Translations under genes and position numbers: made by a program
Assembly (NCBI RefSeq): GCF_900090285.1
Contig: NZ_LT607754.1
Location: 5,234,001-5,298,000 of the forward strand
Source: Micromonospora inositola
GTDB lineage: Bacteria > Actinomycetota > Actinomycetes > Mycobacteriales > Micromonosporaceae
Direction: 5' to 3'
Length of the DNA: 64,000 bases
Notes under the pieces: generated by a model
Told to the model about the DNA's origin: nothing
The model's database searches: none
What the model saw: the letters and a program-made list of their open reading frames with translations, nothing else
In this document: piece after piece, positions 2,655 to 15,701 of the stretch
How positions within the stretch are numbered: the first letter of the stretch is position 1
Layout: the number at the start of each line of letters is the position of its first letter

Positions 2655-2790
2655 GACAGCAACTCTTTCACGGGCGAACGCACTGTCATGCCGCGATCCG
2701 CGCGCTACGCGGCGTCACGAAGTGCCGACTCGGCCGGCATACGCACATGCCGAGTTGAGTGCGTCGAGTGGCATGCGTTGCGGTCATCGG

Positions 2791-2829
2791 GCGCTCGTCT
2801 CGGGATCCTGTGCATCCCGAGACGAGCGC
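2791..2829. terminator. hairpin terminator, 16-bp perfect stem
   Basis: GCGCTCGTCTCGGGAT (2791-2806) and its exact complement (2814-2829) flank the 7-nt loop CCTGTGC. It sits just beyond the stop codon of the minus-strand MFS gene that ends at 2845. There is no U-tract, as is common in actinobacteria. Confidence 0.75.
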
Positions 2830-2844
2830 ATTGACCGCGACGGT

Positions 2845-4047
2845 TTATCTGAGCGGTACTGTCCGGACATCGGGCGTTGCGGCCAGCAGGAGCGCCGACA
2901 CGGCCGCGAAAGCGGCCGCTCCGACGTAGACCAAACCCGGTGAGGCGTACGCGAGCGACCACCCGAACGCCGCGCCGGCCGCAAGCGGCACCACGGTCTC
3001 CGCAACGGCACCGATTCCGGTCAGCGCGCCCTGCACGGTTCCCTGCTCGTCGGCCCGGACGCTGCGAGAGATCCACGACTGCGCGGCCGCACCGCCGACC
3101 GAGCCGAGCACGCCGACCGCCTGCAGGAGGTAGAGCATCCACGGCACGGACACGGACGCCGTACCTACCAGCGACGCGACGCCGAGCAGGCTGCCGGCCA
3201 CCGCGGCACGCTTGTCGCCGAGCAGGCGGACGACCGGGCCGACGGCCCAGGCCTGAAAGACCGCGCCGGCGAGCGCGCCCGCCGCCATCACGACGCCGAT
3301 GTGCGCGGTGTTCCAGGCGAACTGGTACGTGAGGAAGAACGTCCAGATCGACTGGTGGGTCATGCGGGCGACGTCGGCGCAGAAGCGGGCGTACGCGAGC
3401 CGCCCCAGCACCGGTCGGCGCAGGACGACGGCGAGGGAGCCGACCGGGTTCGCCATCCGCAGGGTCAGCGGGGTCGTCCGCTCTCCGGGCCGCGACTCGG
3501 GCAGGACGAACCAGCCGTAGGCGACGTTGGCGAAGGACAGCGCGGCCGCGGCGAAGAATGGCAGGCGTACGTCGACGGCGCCGAGCAGGCCGCCGATGGT
3601 CGGGCCGGCGACGAAGCCGAGCCCGAACGCTGCGCCGATCAGCCCGTACGCGCGGGCCCGCGACTCGGGTTCCGTGACGTCCGCGATGTACGCGTTAACC
3701 ACGGTGTTCGTACCCGCGCACGCACCGGCGAGGGCGTGGAACAGCAAGAGTGTCCAAGGGCTGGGTGAGATCGCGTGGGCCAGCCAGTCGACGCCGAGGC
3801 AGGTCAGCGACGCGAGCAGGACGGGACGCCGGCCGTACCGGTCGGAGAGCCGTCCGAGCAGCGGCGAGACGACGAACTGCAGCAGCCCGTAGATCGAGCC
3901 GAGCAGGCCGGACCAGCGGACAGCGGCGGTGGCGTCCTCGGTGACGGCCGTCATCAGGGCCGGCACGATCGGCACGATCAGGCCGAGCCCGAGCATGTCG
4001 AGGAAGACGGTGACGAGGAGAAAGGAGAGGGCGGGCGCCCGGCGCAT
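2845..4047 (-). CDS. MFS drug efflux transporter, TetA-like (DHA1 family)
   Basis: The 400-aa protein has 12 predicted membrane spans. The conserved loop motif A is present (GRLSDRYGRRPVLL, about residue 64), and the first helix reads DMLGLGLIVPIVPAL, close to the class A/B TetA proteins. It is expected to export a drug or metabolite by proton antiport at the cytoplasmic membrane. ATG at 4047 is chosen because it opens directly on the first helix; an upstream frame-mate at 4092 adds 15 unremarkable residues. No TetR-type regulator sits next to it. Confidence 0.85.
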   Translation of the reverse strand: MRRAPALSFLLVTVFLDMLGLGLIVPIVPALMTAVTEDATAAVRWSGLLGSIYGLLQFVVSPLLGRLSDRYGRRPVLLASLTCLGVDWLAHAISPSPWTLLLFHALAGACAGTNTVVNAYIADVTEPESRARAYGLIGAAFGLGFVAGPTIGGLLGAVDVRLPFFAAAALSFANVAYGWFVLPESRPGERTTPLTLRMANPVGSLAVVLRRPVLGRLAYARFCADVARMTHQSIWTFFLTYQFAWNTAHIGVVMAAGALAGAVFQAWAVGPVVRLLGDKRAAVAGSLLGVASLVGTASVSVPWMLYLLQAVGVLGSVGGAAAQSWISRSVRADEQGTVQGALTGIGAVAETVVPLAAGAAFGWSLAYASPGLVYVGAAAFAAVSALLLAATPDVRTVPLR

Positions 4048-4497
4048 TGCGGCTCCTGAGTGTCGAGAGGGCAGGGCCCCCTCGCGACTCACGGTCCGCC
4101 GAAAGTACGGAGGATCAGAATATCTCCGCTGTCAAGTCGTTTTTCACCATCGCGCTGCGGGCATGTCCGCTGACAACGAATCGATCATTATCATGCTGCG
4201 GTGATTCGATGGTGCTGCGGTGAACGACCTCCGGTTCGAGCCGCCCAGCCGATGACCGGCATCCGGATCTGCCGCGAAGCGCTCGTCACGCAAGGTAACC
4301 AGCTCACGGGTGCACGCATCCGGACGTAGCCAAGAAGCGGATGGGTCGTGAGGGCAGTCAAGAACCTTGCCCAGGCCGTGGCCGCGGCCCGCCGGAGCAG
4401 CGGACCACCATCCTGGAGTCTTCGAGCAGACACCGTTCTCTGGAGCCCTGCCCCCGAGAGCCCCTGGCCGGCCCGTCCAGAAGACTGGTGAGGCGGC
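4048..4497. other. 450-bp intergenic region without a supported gene
   Basis: It separates the start of the MFS gene from the end of the next minus-strand gene. Base composition is lower in GC around 4110-4200, with AT-rich runs such as GATCATTATCATG that could hold the MFS promoter. Open frames here have arginine/serine-rich shadow composition and no ribosome binding site. I see no RNA gene or insertion sequence. Confidence 0.5.
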
Positions 4498-6037: not shown

Positions 6038-6874
6038 ATGAGCACCGACCGAGGGTCCACGAAGTCTGGCATTGCCGGTCCGCCGAGGCGCTTGAGAGGA
6101 AGGAGGTCGGGGCATGGGCCAGCGACTGCCGCCACCTCTGACAAGCGCCTTTACGGGCCCGAACGTTTCGACGTCAATTTCATCGACTCTGAAGGCCGAG
6201 AATTCCAGGAGCCATTAATCCAGTGCTGGAATCAGCCCTTTGAGGCTGCCCTTCCGATCCGCAGTTTGGCTTCCTATCGCGGGAAGAAGAGCTTCTCTGG
6301 GTTGTGGTGGTTGGCGACCACATCTGATCACGTCAGCTACGAGTCGTGGCTGGAGCGGGATCACGTCATGGCGTTGGACTTTGACCCGGCTGTGATAGGG
6401 CTGGCCTCGCGACCGTTTCGGCTTGCATGGCGGCACGATGGCAAGACCCGTACCCATACGCCGGACCTTTTCGCACGGCTGGATGACGGGACGGCAGTGC
6501 TGATCGACGTGCTGCCGGGCGATCAGGTCGAGTTGGACGATCTGACGGCCTGGGATGCGATCACACAGGCATGCGACGCCGTCGGCTGGGAATTCCGGCG
6601 GGTCGGCGAGATGGATGGCGTGCTGACGGCGAACCTACGATGGCTGTCTGGGTACCGGCATCCTCGCTGCCTAGACCCGGGCCGGGCGGCCGACCTGAGG
6701 CGGGTGTTTGCTGACGGCGCGGCGCTGATGGAAGGCGCCCGTCACGTCGGGGATCCGATTGCCGTGCTTCCCACGCTGTTTCATCTGCTCTGGCGGCAGG
6801 TGCTTCGGACCGACCTGGCCACTACGCCCTTGTGGGAAGGATCGCTGGTCCGCGGTGGCGGTGAGCAGCCATGA
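6038..6874 (+). CDS. tnsA: TnsA-like heteromeric transposase endonuclease subunit
   Basis: This 278-aa protein is the first gene of a four-gene Tn7-like operon. TnsA cuts the 5' strands at transposon ends, so that with TnsB the element leaves cleanly. The endonuclease core spans about residues 85-165: SYESWLERDHV with E102/E106, THTPDLFARL with D143, and AVLIDVLPGDQ. In Tn7 TnsA the last position of the triad is Q-x-K; here no lysine is seen and D157 occupies that strand. About 35 poorly conserved residues precede the core, so the true start may be later. It overlaps tnsB by 4 bases (ATGA). Confidence 0.85.
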   Translation: MSTDRGSTKSGIAGPPRRLRGRRSGHGPATAATSDKRLYGPERFDVNFIDSEGREFQEPLIQCWNQPFEAALPIRSLASYRGKKSFSGLWWLATTSDHVSYESWLERDHVMALDFDPAVIGLASRPFRLAWRHDGKTRTHTPDLFARLDDGTAVLIDVLPGDQVELDDLTAWDAITQACDAVGWEFRRVGEMDGVLTANLRWLSGYRHPRCLDPGRAADLRRVFADGAALMEGARHVGDPIAVLPTLFHLLWRQVLRTDLATTPLWEGSLVRGGGEQP

Positions 6875-8973
6875 CCGTGTCTCGACCCCGAATGCTGCGC
6901 ACCGGGGACGAGATTCGGTTGAGGGGCTCCCTGTACACGGTGACGTCCGTAACCGGTACCGGAGTACGGCTGGCGGACATCGTCGGTATGGAAACCACCA
7001 TGCCGCTCACCGAGGTGCTTACCGGCCGCGACCTGGAGTGGGTGTCCTCGCCACGCGGTCCCGCTCCGCTACCACCCGCGGGTCTTCTGGACGGGCTGCC
7101 CGAGTCCGCGGTGAAGCAAGCACTGTGGTGGGAGCAGCACCTCATAGAACTACTGACCGGCGTTGCGCCGGATACGCCGCCTGAATCGGCGCCCAAGCCC
7201 GAGTACGATCCGCGCCGGCACTCGCTGCGTCAGCGTGAGCTAGCCAAGCTGACCGAGTTGCAGGCAGCGGGGCACAGCGTCAGCTTCCCTACGATCAAAC
7301 GGCTGCGATCGGCCTACGAAAAGCAGGGGCTGTGGGGGCTGGTCGACCGGCGCCTGGCTCGACCAGCCGGCCCCACCGGTAGGGTCGACGAACGGATTGT
7401 CGCCGCGACCGTGCAGGCGATCGCCGAGGAAACCAACCGCTCGACAGGAACGGTGACCAGGCTGCGCCGCCGGGTGACACAGATCCTCGCCGCCCAGCAC
7501 GGTACGTCCGCCCCCGATCTGCCATCGCCTGCGACCTTCTACCGCCTGGTCACCCGGCTCTCGCGGGGTAAGCACACGTTCGGCTCGGCGAAGACCCGCC
7601 GATCGCAGGCAAAGGCCCCGCAGGGCCCGTTTGGCTCGGTGTCGGCCGTCAGACCCGGCGAGTGGGTGCAGATCGACTCCACTCCGATCGATGTCCGGGT
7701 GGTCCTGGACAACGGTATGGTCGACCGTGCGGAGCTGACGTGGATGGCGGACCTTGGCACCCGAGGCATTCCGGCGGCGGTGCTGCGACCCACGACCAAA
7801 GCCGCCGACGCGGCGGTCCTGCTGGCTCGAGCACTGACTCCGGAGCCCATGCGGCCGGGCTGGGCCGACGCGGTGCGGCTGTCACGCTCGGTGCTGCCGC
7901 ATCGCCGCCTTACCGCGCTCGACGAGCGGCTGGAGCATGCGGCCTGCCGGCCGGTGATCGTTCCTGAGAACATCGTCTGCGATAACGGAAAGGCGTACAT
8001 TTCGCAGACGTTCCGAACTGCCTGCAGGGCGATGGGGATCAACTTCCAGCCCACCCATGAGGGCTCGCCGTGGGAGAAGGGTGTCGTCGAACGCAGCTTC
8101 GATTCACTGGGCACCCTGTTCGCTCAGTACGTCGCCGGCTACGTCGGGCGCAGCGTCGAGCATCGCGGTGAGAATGCCGACCAGGACGCGGTGTGGTCGA
8201 TCGTTGAGCTGCAGGCGCTGCTGGACGAGTGGATCGTGACGGTCTGGCACAACAGGCCACATGACGGGCTCCGGCATCCACTTACCCCGGACAAGGCCCT
8301 GACGCCGAACGAGCAGTATGCCGCGCTCGTCGAGGTCGCCGGGTATGTACCTGTTCCCTTGAGCGCAGATGACTACGTGGAGCTACTTCCCGTCGCCTGG
8401 CGCGCCATCACCCCCTCCGGAATCAAACTCAACCGGCGCACCTACGACGACAAGAAAGGTGCGCTCAACGACTACCGCCGCGCGCACTCCGGCGTCACGG
8501 CGAAGAAGGGGCTGTGGGAGGTCCACTACGATCCCTACGACGTCACCCGCATCTGGGTCCGGAACCACCATCACGGTGGCTGGATCACCGTTCCCTGGAA
8601 ACATCTACGGAGTTCTCCCGCGCCGTTTGGGGAGTTGGCCTGGCAGCACGCCCGCAGCATCCTGCGACAACGAGGCCAGGACAAGGCGACAGAGGCGGAG
8701 ATCGCTCAGGCCGCGGCACAGTTGCTGGACCGGGCGGAGCAAGGTCCTGAGCAGCCGCCCAGGACCGCCAAGAGGGATCGGCGAGTCGCCGGAAGAACTC
8801 GCGCAACCAACTCGCCCTCAGGTCCACGACCGGAACCAGCGCCGAAGGACGAGGACGTCGGTGAGGCGCCGGATGTAGCTGCGGCCGGAAACAGCCCCGA
8901 CGAACCGCTGGCAAAGGTCATCCCGCTGCCCGTGTTCGACGCACGCAAGGAGGCCCGAAAGTGGCGGTTCTGA
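6871..8973 (+). CDS. tnsB: TnsB-like DDE transposase (Mu/Tn7 type)
   Basis: The 700-aa protein has N-terminal helix-turn-helix-like DNA-binding segments (about residues 115-165, including VSFPTIKRLRSAYEKQG). An RNase H-fold integrase core follows. The catalytic triad is D269 (GEWVQIDSTPID), D371 (NIVCDNGKAYIS) and E407 (KGVVERSFDS), which gives the classical D-D-35-E spacing. A Mu-type C-terminal beta-barrel region lies at about 500-600, and the basic tail ends ARKEARKWRF, likely the TnsC-contact tail. It binds the transposon ends and joins 3' ends to target DNA. It overlaps tnsC by 13 bases. Confidence 0.95.
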   Translation: MTVSRPRMLRTGDEIRLRGSLYTVTSVTGTGVRLADIVGMETTMPLTEVLTGRDLEWVSSPRGPAPLPPAGLLDGLPESAVKQALWWEQHLIELLTGVAPDTPPESAPKPEYDPRRHSLRQRELAKLTELQAAGHSVSFPTIKRLRSAYEKQGLWGLVDRRLARPAGPTGRVDERIVAATVQAIAEETNRSTGTVTRLRRRVTQILAAQHGTSAPDLPSPATFYRLVTRLSRGKHTFGSAKTRRSQAKAPQGPFGSVSAVRPGEWVQIDSTPIDVRVVLDNGMVDRAELTWMADLGTRGIPAAVLRPTTKAADAAVLLARALTPEPMRPGWADAVRLSRSVLPHRRLTALDERLEHAACRPVIVPENIVCDNGKAYISQTFRTACRAMGINFQPTHEGSPWEKGVVERSFDSLGTLFAQYVAGYVGRSVEHRGENADQDAVWSIVELQALLDEWIVTVWHNRPHDGLRHPLTPDKALTPNEQYAALVEVAGYVPVPLSADDYVELLPVAWRAITPSGIKLNRRTYDDKKGALNDYRRAHSGVTAKKGLWEVHYDPYDVTRIWVRNHHHGGWITVPWKHLRSSPAPFGELAWQHARSILRQRGQDKATEAEIAQAAAQLLDRAEQGPEQPPRTAKRDRRVAGRTRATNSPSGPRPEPAPKDEDVGEAPDVAAAGNSPDEPLAKVIPLPVFDARKEARKWRF

Positions 8974-9983
8974 CCGCGGTCAACCAACTAGAGGATCGCC
9001 GGCAACCCACCACCACTGTGGAAGGCTGGCGGCGTTTCGTGGAGGTCGATTCGACCGACTTCGAACTGCTGCCGGACAGCGACTGGTCAGCGCTGACCGA
9101 GCATGAGCGCACCGTATATGACGAGGCGAGGATCGCGCACCACGCTGAACTCGTCGTGGTCACGACGTCCGCGATTCAGGAGATCACCAACGAGGGCCGG
9201 TTACTGACGCTGCTGAACCAGAGAGAAAACGGCGCTCGCCGCGGGCTGATCGTTTCCGGTGCGGCCGCCACCGGCAAGACAACAGCGATCAAACAGCTGG
9301 GCCGGCTCCACGAGCTGCGCGTCCGAGCCCGGTTCCCCGGCTCTGAGCGGATTCCGGTGGTCTACGTGACCGCTCCACCGAAAGGCTCACCACGCAAACT
9401 GGCAATGGAGTTTGCGCGGTTCCTCGGCCTGCCCGCGATTACCTCCCGCGCCAACGCGACTGACATCGCTGATGCCGTCTGTCAAATCCTGATCGACGTC
9501 CACTGCGACATCGTCATTGTTGATGAGCTGCACAACATCAACATGGCGACCACGGTTGGCGAGGACTACTCGGACCACATGAAGTACTTCACCGAGCATT
9601 TGCCCGCCACATTCATCTATGCCGGCATCGATATCGAACGGTCCGGCATGTTCACCGGGGTTCGCGGCAAACAGCTCGCCGGACGCTGCGTCCTTGTCAA
9701 CACTGGGCCATTCCCCTACCACGACGAGTGGAAGCAGTTGGTTGCCGGCATGGAGAGCGCCCTGCGGTTGCACCACCACGAGCCCGGCTCGCTGACCATG
9801 CTGGCCAAATACCTCCACCACCGCACCGGCGGCATGATCGGCAGCCTGTCCCACCTCATCCGCGCCGCAGCGATCCGCGCCATCCTCAGCGGAACCGAAG
9901 CCATCACCGAGGCTGCGATGGACAAGGTTCGGATCGATCACGCCGCCGACTCGTCAGCCCGCCGCACGAGTTCACGTCGATGA
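8961..9983 (+). CDS. tnsC: TnsC-like AAA+ ATPase, transposition regulator
   Basis: The 340-aa protein starts at GTG 8961. Walker A is at residues 100-107 (GAAATGKT) and Walker B at 183-189 (DIVIVDE), followed by LHNIN as in TnsC/TniB proteins. It is expected to assemble on target DNA in an ATP-dependent way and recruit the TnsAB transposase to the site chosen by TniQ. The start lies inside the tnsB coding end and the stop overlaps the tniQ start (ATGA at 9980-9983), so the four genes are translationally coupled. Confidence 0.93.
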   Translation: MAVLTAVNQLEDRRQPTTTVEGWRRFVEVDSTDFELLPDSDWSALTEHERTVYDEARIAHHAELVVVTTSAIQEITNEGRLLTLLNQRENGARRGLIVSGAAATGKTTAIKQLGRLHELRVRARFPGSERIPVVYVTAPPKGSPRKLAMEFARFLGLPAITSRANATDIADAVCQILIDVHCDIVIVDELHNINMATTVGEDYSDHMKYFTEHLPATFIYAGIDIERSGMFTGVRGKQLAGRCVLVNTGPFPYHDEWKQLVAGMESALRLHHHEPGSLTMLAKYLHHRTGGMIGSLSHLIRAAAIRAILSGTEAITEAAMDKVRIDHAADSSARRTSSRR

Positions 9984-10984
9984 CTCAGGCTACCGACAGC
10001 TGGCTTAGGGGAAGACTTCGACGACTGCCGCGCCGCGTCCCTCCCGTGCACGACGAGACGCTCGAGTCGTACATCGGCCGGCTCGCAGCCAACAACCACC
10101 TGTCCCGGGATCACCTCGTCGACTACCTGACCACGACCAAGCGCCACGACAGGCGGCGTAATCAGCTCGTCTCACTTGACTCCCAGGCGTCAGTGAGCGG
10201 GTTCGCCGCGGCGAGCTTAGCCCATGCGCTGCCGGAGATGAGGCTGCGGCTCCCGGAGCGAGAAGCGCGGCCATTCATCGGACAGACCGTAGCCGGCCAA
10301 CCCAACCGACAACGCCCATGGTGCCGACTCTGCGCGGCCGCCAAGGGCATCATCGGCCAGGTCACTATCTGGGCCAGGTGCGATTACAGCGTCTGCATCC
10401 GCCATCAGCTATGGGTCGGGCGGGGCGTTTGGCATCCCCACGACCAGCTCGACGTCTCCGACTTTCCCGAGATCACCCGGGCGCAGGTCCGGCTCCGGCG
10501 GCGCATCCGCCGGCTCGGTCATGCACGAGTCAGCTTCTACTACTTGGACGCCTGCGAGGTCGAACATTGGGTTTCTCGGGACCCATTGGCGCTGTCACCT
10601 CACAACGATCGCATGAAGCGCCTGTTCGCACGGGAGCAAGCAGAGTCCTTACCGTTGTCCTACGTATACGCTGCCCAGTACCCCGAGGTAGTCAACATCC
10701 TCACCGTAATCTCCTCACCGTTCTGGCGCCGGATGGCGTTGTCCAGACAGATCGAAGACCGCGAGCGCTTCCACGACGAAATCGACCGGAAGACAAAACC
10801 CAGCGGAATAGCGCGAGGTAACCGACGGCTGCGAACGTGGATCGACGACCAACGCCACCCTCCGTTACCTGACGATCCATACAGCGAGAAGTTCCTCCGC
10901 CGCCTCTACCTGAGCCGACCAGGCGTGCTCCAAGCTCACGATCCCGCAGACGATCAACCTCGCTCCTCGCCTAGCCCATGGTGA
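9980..10984 (+). CDS. tniQ: TniQ/TnsD-family target-selection protein
   Basis: ATG at 9980 overlaps the tnsC stop. The 334-aa product has the N-terminal TniQ pattern, in which DETLESYIGRLAANNHLS opens the first domain. A zinc-finger-like set follows: C115 and C118 (WCRLC), C134, then C139 and H142 (CIRH). The rest is basic and helical. In Tn7-like elements this subunit recognises the attachment site or an adaptor complex and links it to TnsC. No Cascade or Cas12k genes are nearby, so targeting is probably by sequence-specific DNA binding. The last gene of the operon, it converges on the gene at 11087. Confidence 0.88.
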   Translation: MTQATDSWLRGRLRRLPRRVPPVHDETLESYIGRLAANNHLSRDHLVDYLTTTKRHDRRRNQLVSLDSQASVSGFAAASLAHALPEMRLRLPEREARPFIGQTVAGQPNRQRPWCRLCAAAKGIIGQVTIWARCDYSVCIRHQLWVGRGVWHPHDQLDVSDFPEITRAQVRLRRRIRRLGHARVSFYYLDACEVEHWVSRDPLALSPHNDRMKRLFAREQAESLPLSYVYAAQYPEVVNILTVISSPFWRRMALSRQIEDRERFHDEIDRKTKPSGIARGNRRLRTWIDDQRHPPLPDDPYSEKFLRRLYLSRPGVLQAHDPADDQPRSSPSPW

Positions 10985-11623: not shown

Positions 11624-11977
11624 GGGTGCCCCTCCGCAGGCAGGGTGTAGCGCGCGACAGGATGGGTGGTACGCAGACATGGTCTCGTTGAGATCCCGGA
11701 ACCTGTCAAGTCCAGTGGGCGCTTTCCGGAGCGGGAGCCTGGTCCGGGCCGGTCGACGCGCAGCTTCGTCCACGACAGCTTGCGGTCGACCTGGGACGTC
11801 GCCTCAGCCAGATCTGCTCGCCCGCGGCGGTCGGTCCAGCCGGGAAGGCTTACTCAGTGGCGGCCACTGTGGAGGATGCGGCCCGTTGATCCGCGTCAGC
11901 ATCGAACGAGACCCGCACTTCGCGGACGTGTCCGTCGTCGCCGACCGGACCGGATCGGGTCCTCGCCCACACGGCGT
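11624..11977. other. 354-bp gap between the Cys/HTH gene and the helicase-like gene
   Basis: It holds the ribosome binding site of the 11087-11623 gene and probably its promoter. The upstream continuation of that frame (11624-11773) includes YHPSCRALHPACGG, so a longer protein with two more cysteines is possible. Other frames here look like shadows. No hairpin or repeat stands out. Confidence 0.4.
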
Positions 11978-13201
11978 TCACCCCGAAGACCGACCGGGAG
12001 GGCGAGGGGTGTCAGCCGACGGGTTCTGCGCCGTGAGCCGGAAGACCGCGACTCCGGACGCCTCGTCCAAGGTGGTCAGCACGTCGCGGAGTTCCCGGTG
12101 GTTCCTGGAGGACCACGAGATCACGATGGAGCCGGTTGGCCATCCTTCGAAGAACGCGCAGGCCCCGTGGGTTGCCACGACGATGTCTCCCGGGCCGGTC
12201 GATTGGAGGCTGGACCGCCGCTCGGCCAGCGGATCCTCCGCGGTGAGCACGGCGCGCGGCTTGCGTCCCGCACCGGCGAGGTGGTCGGCGATGTACCTGG
12301 CGTCCATCGGAGTGGACGAGAGGATGAAGCAGGAGACGCCGACCCTAAGGTGTCGGTCGAGGATGGTGTCGAGCGCGTCCAGGCGGGGGTCCACGTCCTG
12401 CGAACCCTCGATCTGATCCAGGAGCCTCCACGCCCTGTCGGAGAGATCGTCATCCCGTGGTGAACGCTTGTCTCCAGCCGCGCCGACGTCGGGCGTCGCG
12501 CCGGAGGCAACGGTCAACAGTCGGGCGTGAAGCTCCGCCCGACTGTCGCTGGGCACCAAGGGCGGGGTCTTGCGGAGTGCGGCGTACTCCGACAACAAAC
12601 CGACTGCCTCACGGCGCAGTCGGCGCTCCTCGGTGCTCAGCTCGTACGGAACGTTCACGAAGAGCGGGTGGCCCACCTCACGGTTGGCGTCTTCGAACGT
12701 GATGTCGGCAAGCAATGGCCAACCCGACCAGAAGCCTGTGGACTGCGGATCGACGAGCGCGACGACATAGCGCGCGCGGGAATGCAGTCGATCGACCTGC
12801 TTTGTAACGCCCGGCATCGGCTGGTCGTGCACGATCAGCTCGAAGGTCACCTCCGACAGGACGAGGCTGGTGGGTCCGTGGGTGGCCCTCGCGTAGGTCG
12901 CCACCAGCACTCGGCCGCCGCGCTCGGGCTCTCCCTCGAGCAGCCGGAGCGCCACCGTCGCGGAATCCAGGACGGTGACGGCGATATCCTTCGCTCGCAA
13001 ACGATCGGCCCACTGCTCGACCGTGGCCGCGTAAGGGCACAGGACCAGGGCGACAGAGCCGGAGGGCAATTCGCCGAGGTACGCTTCGATGGCCTTGCGG
13101 ATTCCGGTTCCGGGGTGCGCGGTGACCACTGCATGTCGCGGCCGCAGGGGATTCTTGAGGCGGTCCAGCAGCTCCTGTTGATAGCCCCACAACGGCTTCA
13201 T
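11978..13201 (-). CDS. superfamily-2 helicase-like protein with degenerate NTPase motifs
   Basis: The 407-aa protein has SF2 layout. It opens with a Q-motif-like LWGYQQELLDRL, then VVTAHPGTGIRKA at residues 25-37 where Walker A (GxGKT) should be. After ALVLCPY and RVLVATY (motif Ia/Ib positions), FELIVHDQP at 120-128 replaces the DExx box. The second RecA-like lobe has DARYIADHL and GDIVVATHGACAFFEGWP (motif V position). The catalytic lysine and the DE pair are absent, so ATP hydrolysis is doubtful. The start overlaps the stop of the CBS/HEPN gene by 4 bases, which implies co-translation. A structural or nucleic-acid-sensing role is inferred. Confidence 0.7.
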   Translation of the reverse strand: MKPLWGYQQELLDRLKNPLRPRHAVVTAHPGTGIRKAIEAYLGELPSGSVALVLCPYAATVEQWADRLRAKDIAVTVLDSATVALRLLEGEPERGGRVLVATYARATHGPTSLVLSEVTFELIVHDQPMPGVTKQVDRLHSRARYVVALVDPQSTGFWSGWPLLADITFEDANREVGHPLFVNVPYELSTEERRLRREAVGLLSEYAALRKTPPLVPSDSRAELHARLLTVASGATPDVGAAGDKRSPRDDDLSDRAWRLLDQIEGSQDVDPRLDALDTILDRHLRVGVSCFILSSTPMDARYIADHLAGAGRKPRAVLTAEDPLAERRSSLQSTGPGDIVVATHGACAFFEGWPTGSIVISWSSRNHRELRDVLTTLDEASGVAVFRLTAQNPSADTPRPPGRSSG

Positions 13202-14022
13202 CGGGCACCGCCTCTGATCAGAATCTTGCGTCTGAGCCAGGACGCCACATCGAGGAGACGCTGGAGCTCCTCAGCCGACAGCTCGTCGCGAAAATGGAAC
13301 ACCTTGTTCCTGATCTCCCGAACCGGTTCGAGGGTAGCGCGGACCAGATGCCGGTTGTTGCCGAACCGGGTCCTGAAGAACCTGCCGAAGCTCGTGCCAT
13401 GCAGCAGCACCGTGAACAGCTCGCTCAGGGTCAAGTCCTCCAGCCGTGCGGCTCGCTCATCGTTCCCGCCGGGCAGTGCCGCCGAAACGACACTCGCCAG
13501 ATCCTCGTCGGTACAGGACGATCGCATCAGGTCTCGCACGGCCAGCTCGATGTCCTGCAGGAGCACGAACGGACGAGTCCTGCGCCACAGGAACGCGCTC
13601 ACGTCTGCGGCCGTCACTACCGCCAGGAGCCGGTCCTCGTCGCCGACCAGGACGGCCCGGTCGGTCTCGATGTATCCCAGGACGGCGCTCACCTCATCTG
13701 CCGCTCGTACGAATCTCAGATCCTCGACCAGGTCCTCGACCGGCATGCTCAGCGGATCGTCCTGCGCACGAAGATGCCGCAGGCCTTGACTGAACGACCG
13801 GTATGTGAAAGTGCCCACGACGTGGCTGTTCACTGTCATCACGGGCAGCTGGTCGAAATCGTGCCGGCGCATCAGGTCGATGGCCGAGCCGATGGGTGTG
13901 CCGGTCGGCACGGTCACGACGTCCTGATCGTCGGGAACGAGCAGGCTCACGCGAAGGAATTCGGGCGTCCGGCCCTCCCGCCGCACGTCCGCGGCGAGGC
14001 CGATGTCGACCGCACTAGCCAT
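13198..14022 (-). CDS. CBS-domain protein with C-terminal HEPN-like (Swt1-type) domain
   Basis: The 274-aa protein has two CBS repeats: about residues 30-90 (GTPIGSAIDLMRRHDFDQLP, VVGTFTYRSFS) and 95-150 (VEDLRFVRAADEVSAVLGYI, RLLAVVTAADVSAFL). CBS pairs bind adenine nucleotides or cyclic dinucleotides. The C-terminal helical domain (about 155-270) contains EPVREIRNKVFHFRDELS with R238-N239 and H243, an RX4H motif as in HEPN ribonucleases. A ligand-gated RNase coupled to the helicase-like partner is a reasonable inference, and such architecture is seen in anti-phage systems. The function is not proven from sequence. Confidence 0.75.
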   Translation of the reverse strand: MASAVDIGLAADVRREGRTPEFLRVSLLVPDDQDVVTVPTGTPIGSAIDLMRRHDFDQLPVMTVNSHVVGTFTYRSFSQGLRHLRAQDDPLSMPVEDLVEDLRFVRAADEVSAVLGYIETDRAVLVGDEDRLLAVVTAADVSAFLWRRTRPFVLLQDIELAVRDLMRSSCTDEDLASVVSAALPGGNDERAARLEDLTLSELFTVLLHGTSFGRFFRTRFGNNRHLVRATLEPVREIRNKVFHFRDELSAEELQRLLDVASWLRRKILIRGGAR

Positions 14023-14243
14023 GTGCGGCGCCAGTCAGTGCGGTGACAGCCTGATTCGGATCACGAACCACGTCGCAGTCTCCTCACATCCCTGCGGTCA
14101 GCCTCGCTTCATGCCTACGGGCCGGAGGCCCGCGCACTACTGTGCGGCTCCATCGTGCATCGCGAGGCCAGCGTCGATGAAGGGCTTCCTCGGGGTCGGC
14201 TCATCCGCCGCACCCAACTGTCGGTGTATGTGCGTATTTGGTT

Positions 14244-14810
14244 GTTCGTGCACGATCACAGGCCGACGCGGTGGACGCGGTGGTCGACTACGAGCGCGCC
14301 GCCGAGGCCTCGCGCCGTGAGCTTCCGGCCGACGACCGTGGCTGGCGTCGTCGCCGGGCCGGGCACTGCGGCGGCGGGCGTACTTCCTGACCGGACAGGC
14401 CGGCTCCGGCAAGACGCACCTGCTGCTCGACGCCACCGGCCGCGCGCTCGACAGTGGTCGGCCCGCGGTGTTCCTTGCCGGTGCGCAGCTCGGGCAGGGC
14501 AACCTGTGGGCGAGTATCGCCGACCAGCTGGGGCTGCCGGCCGTCGGTGCCGACGTTCTGCTGCTAGCGATGGACGCCGCCGGTGAGGCCGCAACGACCG
14601 CCGGCAGCCGATTTCTGATCGTCCTCGACGCGCTGAACGAGACCGTGCCGGCCGACTTCTGGCGCGTTCACCTGCCCGCCCTGCGGTCGGCGGTCGCCCA
14701 GTATCCGCACGTCGCGCTCGTGGTGTCCTGCCGCGACACCTACCGGGACCTGGTTCTGGACGGGGCCGAGAGCAGCCACTTCCTGCAGCGCACCCATCCC
14801 GGCTTCGCCG
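14244..14810 (+). pseudogene. fragment of a NACHT/STAND-type ATPase, frameshifted and truncated
   Basis: The first part (about 14244-14370) reads AVDAVVDYERAAEASRRELP in one frame. The Walker A region (YFLTGQAGSGKTHLLLDA, from about 14381) lies in the next frame and continues through PAVFLAGAQLGQGNLWASI and a Walker B strand RFLIVLDALNET to ALVVSCRDTYRDLVL. This is the P-loop part of defence-type NACHT ATPases. The reading then runs without a stop into an unrelated MFS segment at about 14810. Effector and sensor domains are missing. Confidence 0.65.
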
Positions 14811-14960
14811 ACCGCCGCCTGGACGTCCCCGGCATCTTCGCGCTGATCTACGGCGTGATCGAGGGCGGCCAGCAGGGCTGGACCAGCCCGCAGGCCCTCG
14901 TTGCACTTCCACTCGCCGCCCTGGTGCTGACCGGATTCGTACTCGTCGAACGGCGCAGCC
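14811..14960 (+). pseudogene. fragment of a DHA2-type MFS transporter
   Basis: In frame with the preceding ATPase fragment, the sequence changes to RRLDVPGIFALIYGVIEGGQ and then a hydrophobic span with LPLAALVLTGFVLVERRS. This matches the TM5-TM6 region of 14-span DHA2 exporters (LDWPG, LVYGVIEG, FVxxERR). Only about 48 residues remain; the frame then enters the TraR/DksA gene region in the wrong phase and stops at 15022. Confidence 0.6.
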
Positions 14961-14976
14961 CCTCGCTCGGGAGGCG

Positions 14977-15291
14977 TTGCAACGCGCACGGCACGAGACC
15001 GAGCTGCAGATTGCGGCACTGACCCGCGACCTGACCGGGGTCATCGACGCCTCCCGCTCCTCCAACGCCGACGACGAACACGATCCTGAAGGCGCGACCA
15101 TCGCGTTCGAGCGGGCGCAGGTGGCCGCGCTGCTGTCCGCCGCGCGTCGACGCCTCGCCGAGTTGGATGCCGCCGAGGAACGACTGGACGGGGGCACGTA
15201 CGGCAGGTGTGAGCGATGCGGCTCACCGATCCCGACGGAACGGCTTGCGGTACGCCCGTCCGCGCGTACCTGCGTCAGCTGCGCCCGCTGA
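14977..15291 (+). CDS. TraR/DksA-family zinc-finger protein
   Basis: The 104-aa frame from TTG 14977 has a coiled-coil-like N-terminal helix (RHETELQIAALTRDLTGVID) and a second helix AALLSAARRRLAELDAAEER. It ends with the C4 zinc finger CERCGSPIPTERLAVRPSARTCVSC at residues about 79-102. Family members bind RNA polymerase or act as small regulators. Coding similarity continues upstream of the TTG (QPLAREALQ), and no ATG/GTG or ribosome site is seen. The native 5' end was probably lost when the MFS fragment was joined, so expression is uncertain. Confidence 0.7.
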   Translation: MQRARHETELQIAALTRDLTGVIDASRSSNADDEHDPEGATIAFERAQVAALLSAARRRLAELDAAEERLDGGTYGRCERCGSPIPTERLAVRPSARTCVSCAR

Positions 15292-15324: not shown

Positions 15325-15372
15325 GCGGTGATGTCCAGGCCGGCCCACGTGGGCCGGCCTGGACATCACCGC
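15325..15372. repeat. 48-bp perfect palindrome
   Basis: Two 24-base arms meet without a loop between 15348 and 15349 (CCGGCCCAC / GTGGGCCGG at the centre). The hairpin may serve as a bidirectional terminator for the DksA-like gene ending at 15291 and for the minus-strand recombinase fragment whose stop codon (15366-15368) lies within it. A perfect palindrome of this length is unusually long. Confidence 0.8.
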
Positions 15373-15646: not shown

Positions 15647-15701
15647 TGGCTCAAGATAATGAGAAGAGCTTCGGCTGGGCAGTTCTCACTATCTTGAGCC
15701 A
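15647..15701. repeat. inverted repeat, 19-bp arms with one mismatch
   Basis: TGGCTCAAGATAATGAGAA (15647-15665) and its near-complement (15683-15701) are separated by 17 bases. The arms differ at one position. The sequence is AT-rich compared with its surroundings. It resembles a recombination core or transposon-end element rather than a terminator, since no gene ends beside it. Confidence 0.6.

Follow-up and report, generated by a model that had tools for sequence, protein, structure and literature searches.

A stretch of 64,000 nucleotides of Micromonospora inositola DNA (the window) carries a gene for a protein with CBS repeats and a C-terminal helical domain, which overlaps a degenerate helicase gene and lies beside a Tn7-like gene set. 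This raises the question whether the two genes form one functional unit, what such a unit would do, and whether it has been described before. The pair has the following features in the window:

11978..13201, minus strand: degenerate SF2-helicase-fold protein of 407 aa (the partner), intact open reading frame (ORF), directly downstream of the effector
13097..13117, minus strand: degenerate motif I (Walker A) of the partner, HPGTGIR, with Lys and Thr/Ser lost (motif table)
13198..13201, no strand: ATGA, the 4-base overlap of the effector and partner genes, read from the sequence
13198..14022, minus strand: CBS-HEPN protein of 274 aa (the effector), intact ORF
13201..13575, minus strand: predicted HEPN-type helical domain, about residues 150-274 of the effector (Pfam and model)
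13294..13311, minus strand: Rx4H motif R238-N239-K-V-F-H243 (homologue alignment)
13573..13959, minus strand: CBS pair, about residues 22-150 of the effector (fold match and conservation)

The 4-base overlap with a degenerate helicase gene, pointed out in a preliminary description of the window, was reproduced: both genes are intact, and the downstream product is modeled with an SF2-type fold and has mostly lost its helicase motifs. In all 21 related loci examined a partner-position ORF of more than 300 aa begins at the end of the effector gene, and in 19 of them a start codon is available at the same 4-base-overlap offset; this set includes L028 and three loci with effectors identical to that of another locus, and leaves out L008, L012, L015, L017, L021, and L051. 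The source genome (one contig, 6.7 Mb) contains a single CBS-HEPN gene of this kind, the other match being weak and CBS-only (E 5e-4). No sigma-70-type promoter was found in 11700-14400 of the window.

Proteins of the HEPN superfamily are typically metal-independent RNases with a dimeric active site. In Pfam the effector matched CBS at 1.3e-10 and HEPN_Swt1 at 2.8e-5 (24.8 bits, under the gathering cut-off of 27.5), and its C-terminal domain alone matched HEPN_Swt1 at 5.1e-6 (27.2 bits, cut-off 27.5). The homologue search listed 120 of 122 matches, all 120 of which were used to assess conservation and 62 to build alignment A1; the closest homologue among the matches listed was the Micromonospora protein P0002 (85% identity). 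HEPN_Swt1 was matched at E 0.01 by 20 of the 62 members of A1, and the HEPN profile reached solved HEPN proteins at the weak E-values of 0.022 and 0.31. The AF2 model of the effector (pLDDT 90.9, pTM 0.81) has helices at residues 138-169, 172-182, 199-206, 209-220, 224-242, and 250-273. The helical domain of this confident model lies where a HEPN domain is expected, and the structure matches listed for the whole protein are CBS proteins; structure prediction bears out the placement of the helical domain, with a putative HEPN fold.

Sequence and fold agree in assigning the CBS pair, the fold of which matches CBS pairs solved with AMP, ADP, ATP, Ap4A or SAM. In the second repeat T137 is conserved in 120/120 homologues and D140 in 119/120, and F56, at the position of Y157 in the anti-phage protein DS-11 (see below), is aromatic in 111 of 115. 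R238, N239, and H243 are kept in all 116 homologues that reach that far (120 aligned), the stretch RNKVFH fits the Rx4-6H motif of the HEPN superfamily, and the Rx4H motif is kept in the 29/29 rows that span two-gene and DS-11-like proteins. The architecture of CBS repeats plus helical domain, and the motif proposed at R238-N239 and H243, are thereby confirmed, and the effector is predicted from sequence and model to consist of a CBS pair and a HEPN-type helical domain with a conserved Rx4H motif.

The effector is, by its sequence, a homologue of DS-11. It matched the NCBIfam model NF053863 (DS11_antiphage) at E 2.5e-34 (118.8 bits, below the equivalog cut-off of 260) in an alignment that spans model positions 71-305, i.e., to the end of the model, and all 62 rows of A1 match NF053863 at 1e-10 or better. 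An Escherichia coli relative detected by tblastn (L048:7638-8735, 365 aa) scored 404.9 bits (cut-off 260), and its residue 157 is Tyr; on the basis of this score, this residue, and the reported features of DS-11 it is very probably DS-11 or an allele, and its DNA was matched at 99% or more in 127 of 5426 E. coli genomes. DS-11 is reported in the DefensePredictor paper of 2026 as a one-protein CBS-HEPN anti-phage system, in which defence is lost on Y157A mutation in the CBS domain or on mutation of the HEPN catalytic residues, and for which the adenine derivative bound by the CBS domain is described as yet to be discovered (PMC13092281). CBS-HEPN and CBS-HEPN-HD proteins had already been noted in 2013 by Anantharaman et al., with the proposal that CBS-HEPN fusions regulate RNA stability upon ligand response (PMC3710099). 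The claim that no described system has this make-up therefore stands for the two-gene form, since a literature search of titles and abstract starts, with preprints and most subscription papers outside it, returned no CBS-HEPN/helicase system of two genes, and falls for the effector. What is new is the degenerate helicase as a dedicated partner; the effector belongs beside an already published defence protein.

The association of the two genes was assessed in 354 genomes of the family. The effector (best E 1.9e-51 or better) occurred in 11 genomes, the full-length partner (E 7.2e-98 or better) in the same 11, as foreseen if the two co-occur, and they were adjacent in 11/11; neither gene was found alone, an absence that is not absolute because only 5-7 first-look candidates were scored per genome. 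With that number of candidates per genome, the comparison rules out chance co-location. One of the 11 genomes (G030, locus L028) has an effector whose coding sequence is divided over two frames. Weaker effector matches in 38 further family genomes were accompanied by no full-length partner; 19 of these genomes were placed in the tree, and the remaining 19 are assigned to the DS-11-like group from their scores alone. The partner profile also had matches in 44 other genomes (E 1.8e-12 or weaker), which were left uncounted as partial, below 50 bits, and in ORFs of at least 520 aa. At E 1e-35, and with the window's own genome included, the pair was present in 4/397 genomes of the order sample and in 1/394 of the class sample; its distribution is patchy. 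A decayed copy, with the frames of both genes broken, is found in Nocardioides sp. B-3 (L012:10001-11922).

In the effector tree, 21 DS-11-like rows fall on one side (support 100/99), and the window belongs to an actinobacterial clade of 20 rows (97/93), to which L013-L016 attach at lower support (83/93). The partner lies directly downstream in 20/20 rows of the actinobacterial clade (16 distinct effector proteins), in three of the four non-actinobacterial relatives (L013, L014, and L016), and in 0/21 DS-11-like rows, where the partner profile gave one weak match, an unrelated ORF; the weak match in L033 (7e-4) was rejected as a different ATPase. Left out of the tree were L012 (broken frame), L017 (contig end), L028 (effector in two frames), L002 (weak CBS-only match), and L051, L018, L053, and L001, whose loci duplicate that of another row or of the window. 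Over the part used for the tree the effectors of L024, L020, and L021 are identical to those of the Micromonospora contigs L010, L007, and L008, respectively.

Both genes are under purifying selection, and the partner evolves faster: across the four pairs whose dS is under 1, dN/dS ranged from 0.07 to 0.17 in the effector and from 0.24 to 0.38 in the partner; in four pairs with higher dS the partner values were 0.41-0.54 in three and not computable in one. The partner values of the four low-dS pairs rule out a decaying pseudogene. The protein distances of effector and partner are correlated (Mantel r 0.934, p 1e-4, n=19; three identical copies dropped, L028 included with part of its effector), as expected from co-inheritance. 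L007 and L010 share a block of 86.6% identical DNA that runs from about 60 bases 5' of the effector start to 16 bases past the partner stop, and nothing else was shared in the 10-kb flanks on both strands at E 1e-5; this block reaches little beyond the pair, and no shared unit smaller than the two genes was observed. Larger units are shared as well, L007 and L008 having about 5.3 kb of flank in common, L019 and L022 being alike over the whole stretch compared, and L019 and L025 sharing a further upstream block.

The window partner matched no PADLOC or NCBIfam family at the limits used, and Pfam returned only DUF6197 at E 0.9, under the cut-off. Two relatives were detected among 5.8 billion proteins and one more by profile search, both of which reach only proteins that share exact words. 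The model (pLDDT 83, pTM 0.56) matched XPB, SNF2-type, Hef, LGP2, and Dicer helicases in a Foldseek search of the PDB at E 1.3e-10 and weaker, the XPB match covering 416 columns at E 1.3e-10. TM-scores of these matches were low (0.29-0.36) and rmsd exceeded 10 A, as when the two lobes sit differently in the model. With a profile of 18 actinobacterial-type partners, L014 was reached at 5.9e-21 and L013, an intact SF2 helicase, at 2.3e-10, and BLASTP of the window partner against L013 gave E 0.002; L013 is a plain SF2 helicase by its Helicase_C (1.6e-12) and DEAD (2e-7) matches. The same profile gave no match to L016 in the six-frame set, and 9.7 bits with filters off. The reverse profile, made from non-actinobacterial partners, matched the window partner weakly at 16.5 bits, and this direction proves nothing because an unrelated ORF of L005 scored 22.3 bits, as much as the best actinobacterial partner. 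Taken together, fold and descent identify the window partner as a predicted SF2-type protein with two RecA-like lobes.

Motifs I, II, and VI of active SF2 helicases are lost in the window partner, which reads GTGIR and HDQP at the first two and has no motif VI. Among the 22 rows of alignment A3, L013, L007, and L010 alone have an intact motif I (GxGKT); DExH (motif II) is confined to L013 and L014, and a motif VI-like QxxGRFxRI to L013, L016, and P0124. The Dehalococcoidia copy keeps motifs I, II, and VI. We read the partner family, from these sequences, as a probable gradient from helicase to pseudo-helicase. At L052:408-2327 a partner of the two-gene type is fused to TPR repeats in a protein of 639 aa (NF040586, 2.4e-48).

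RAMA is a domain named for its association with modified DNA, and it was detected in 17/20 DS-11-like proteins. Moreover, a single protein of 899 aa that combines an SF2 helicase, a RAMA-like part, a CBS pair, and a HEPN domain is encoded in two genomes of the same family (L063:1390-4089 and L064:2298-4991; 81% identical). The fused helicases have the motifs VGFGKT and QMLGRGTR, and that of L063 matched RadD (2.9e-8) and a type I restriction subunit. Between the RAMA parts and that of L041 the identity is 38-39% (E 3e-14 and 1e-8); the CBS-HEPN parts align to the window effector at E 1e-13 and 6e-12. With the non-actinobacterial partner profile the fused helicases of L063 and L064 scored 21.4 and 18.4 bits (the unrelated L005 ORF: 22.3), and the other two partner profiles gave no match. 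Judged from these sequences, RAMA often precedes the CBS pair in single-protein forms, a place taken in the two-gene form by the separate protein, and RAMA, or RAMA plus a fused helicase, would be the equivalent sensor of the single-protein relatives.

The surroundings of the pair in the window include two further features:

6038..10984, plus strand: Tn7-like gene set, TnsA-like, TnsB-like, TnsC/TniB, and TniQ, neighbor of the pair
14375..15022, plus strand: remnant of about 150 aa of an Avs2-type STAND ATPase (PADLOC Avs2 1.4e-44, profile positions 346-492 of 1504)

The adjacency of a Tn7-like element suggested at the outset is borne out by this gene set, for which neither clear ends nor end repeats were identified. 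The flank search, which covered 20 relatives, leaves the pair a candidate cargo of the element. Of the Avs2-type gene a part of the NTPase region is all that remains. The scan of 12 loci took in 95 of the 110 flanking ORFs selected from the calls of a simple GC-frame script, and the neighbor proteins scanned singly were hand-picked. Clear defence genes were present in the flanks of four of these loci, a raw count with no matched control set: SspC and SspD of Ssp (L007), PglZ of BREX (L016), SIR2 (L006, 2e-9), and PbeA, PbeC, and DndD of Dnd/Pbe (L015, a locus without a partner gene). In the remaining eight no defence neighbor was identified among the matches listed, which cover 25 of 305 PADLOC families. 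With these four loci and the Avs2 remnant in the window, the defence context that had been suggested finds support. A gene for a second-messenger synthase was not noticed next to the pair. At L015:9944-13451, in an Anaerolineae bin, a CBS-HEPN protein with a C-terminal extension lies 53 bases 5' of the PbeA-PbeC set, so that PbeA, a helicase-containing defence protein, is found downstream in place of the partner. Viral origin or phage carriage of the pair was rejected, as no match was found in the phage collection and none was confirmed in viral contigs. Elsewhere in the window, an MFS-transporter segment (2748-4343) has a 94% duplicate in the same genome (G000:C1 near 4764541), and the end of this similarity at about 4343 is a possible left border of the island. 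A perfect 24-base palindrome (15325-15372) and a 19-base inverted pair (95%, 17-base gap; 15647-15701) are possibly a terminator and an insertion-element remnant.

On balance, the pair is probably a two-component, DS-11-like anti-phage module, composed of an effector RNase and a former helicase that serves as its sensor and lock. The CBS-HEPN protein would be the RNase, probably a dimer, and inactive in the healthy cell. The partner would descend from an SF2 helicase, with ATP hydrolysis mostly lost and the two-lobed nucleic-acid-binding fold kept; bound to the effector, it may sense nucleic acid or protein of phage origin and act as the lock, and, as the faster-evolving component, may be the part that meets the phage. 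Once the partner is engaged and an adenine-nucleotide state is registered by the CBS pair, the HEPN dimer would cut RNA and infection would be stopped at the cell's expense (abortive infection). For the pair we infer RNase activity, nucleotide gating, complex formation, the direction of control, and the defence role. That the two genes work together is supported by the L063/L064 fusions, the defence genes near some loci, and the two-gene exchange unit. A more specific version, offered tentatively, is that the dead helicase recognizes phage nucleic acid and the CBS pair is a second, metabolic key, i.e., a pseudo-enzyme sensor with two-key activation; it is suggested by a partner that runs from intact SF2 helicase through eroded to motif-less forms beside the same type of HEPN RNase. 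The observation of the preliminary description is thus confirmed, and its interpretation as a whole is partly supported.

A toxin-antitoxin pair, in which the HEPN RNase is constitutively toxic, the partner a mere antitoxin, and defence secondary or absent, would share the overlapping genes, the co-occurrence, the patchy distribution, and an effector from a superfamily of RNase toxins, and agrees with the loss of catalytic motifs in most partners. The split effector beside an open partner in L028 looks as if the toxic half were lost first, in a single case; however, both genes are broken in L012. DS-11 relatives, moreover, persist as single genes without this partner (0/21 rows), and an antitoxin would need neither the size and SF2 descent of the partner nor the motifs I, II, and VI of the Dehalococcoidia copy, and we consider such a pair unlikely. 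It is more doubtful still that the CBS-HEPN protein defends alone, with the partner as an optional modulator or a separate activity. DS-11 is indeed reported as a one-protein system (PMC13092281), and its catalytic and ligand residues are common to the window effector, but neither gene was found without the other in the 354 genomes (few first-look candidates scored in each). The clade also lacks the N-terminal region of DS-11, its alignment starting at model position 71, and because this region is missing and 17/20 DS-11-like proteins carry RAMA, the second gene may have taken over the sensor part.

Least probable, and held to be very improbable, is a nucleotide-regulated RNA-processing pair with a housekeeping function and no role in defence. 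Such a function would accord with the part in ligand-responsive RNA stability proposed for CBS-HEPN fusions (PMC3710099) and with the eight of 12 loci in which no defence neighbor was identified; it is at odds with the rarity of the pair (11/354, 4/397, and 1/394 genomes of family, order, and class, the window's own counted), with a two-gene block common to the otherwise unrelated stretches of L007 and L010, with known defence genes near some loci, and with the homology of the effector to an anti-phage protein. If the pair is the two-component module proposed here, its functions are divided in this clade between an effector and a partner that is separable and evolves faster, which opens trigger recognition to separate study, and the clade offers an evolutionary series from intact to motif-less helicase inside one apparent defence module.

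Compared with known systems, the effector is closest to DS-11, with which it shares the alignable order of CBS pair and HEPN-type domain, RN-x3-HF, and the aromatic residue at the Y157 position. Unlike DS-11, which is a single gene, it has a dedicated downstream partner gene and no N-terminal region ahead of the CBS pair; moreover, it scores below the NF053863 equivalog cut-off and stands apart from the 21 DS-11-like rows (100/99). The combination of HEPN with CBS and a proposed response to a nucleotide ligand is also that of the CBS-HEPN proteins of PMC3710099, for which, in the parts of that source available here, no helicase partner is given. The better-preserved partners L013 and L016 match the models of RapA and of the SF2/SNF2-type defence helicases DrmD (DISARM) and DpdE, all below cut-offs, whereas the window partner has neither a significant family match nor motifs I, II, and VI. 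As in HEPN-MNT and similar toxin-antitoxin pairs, a HEPN RNase (here a predicted one) adjoins a dedicated partner gene, but the partner in the window has a helicase fold and is no nucleotidyltransferase, and the effector has a putative CBS sensor. Finally, Hachiman likewise pairs a small nuclease gene with an SF2-type helicase; its helicase is active and its nuclease cuts DNA, whereas the pair in the window combines a HEPN protein that carries a CBS pair with a mostly motif-less helicase.
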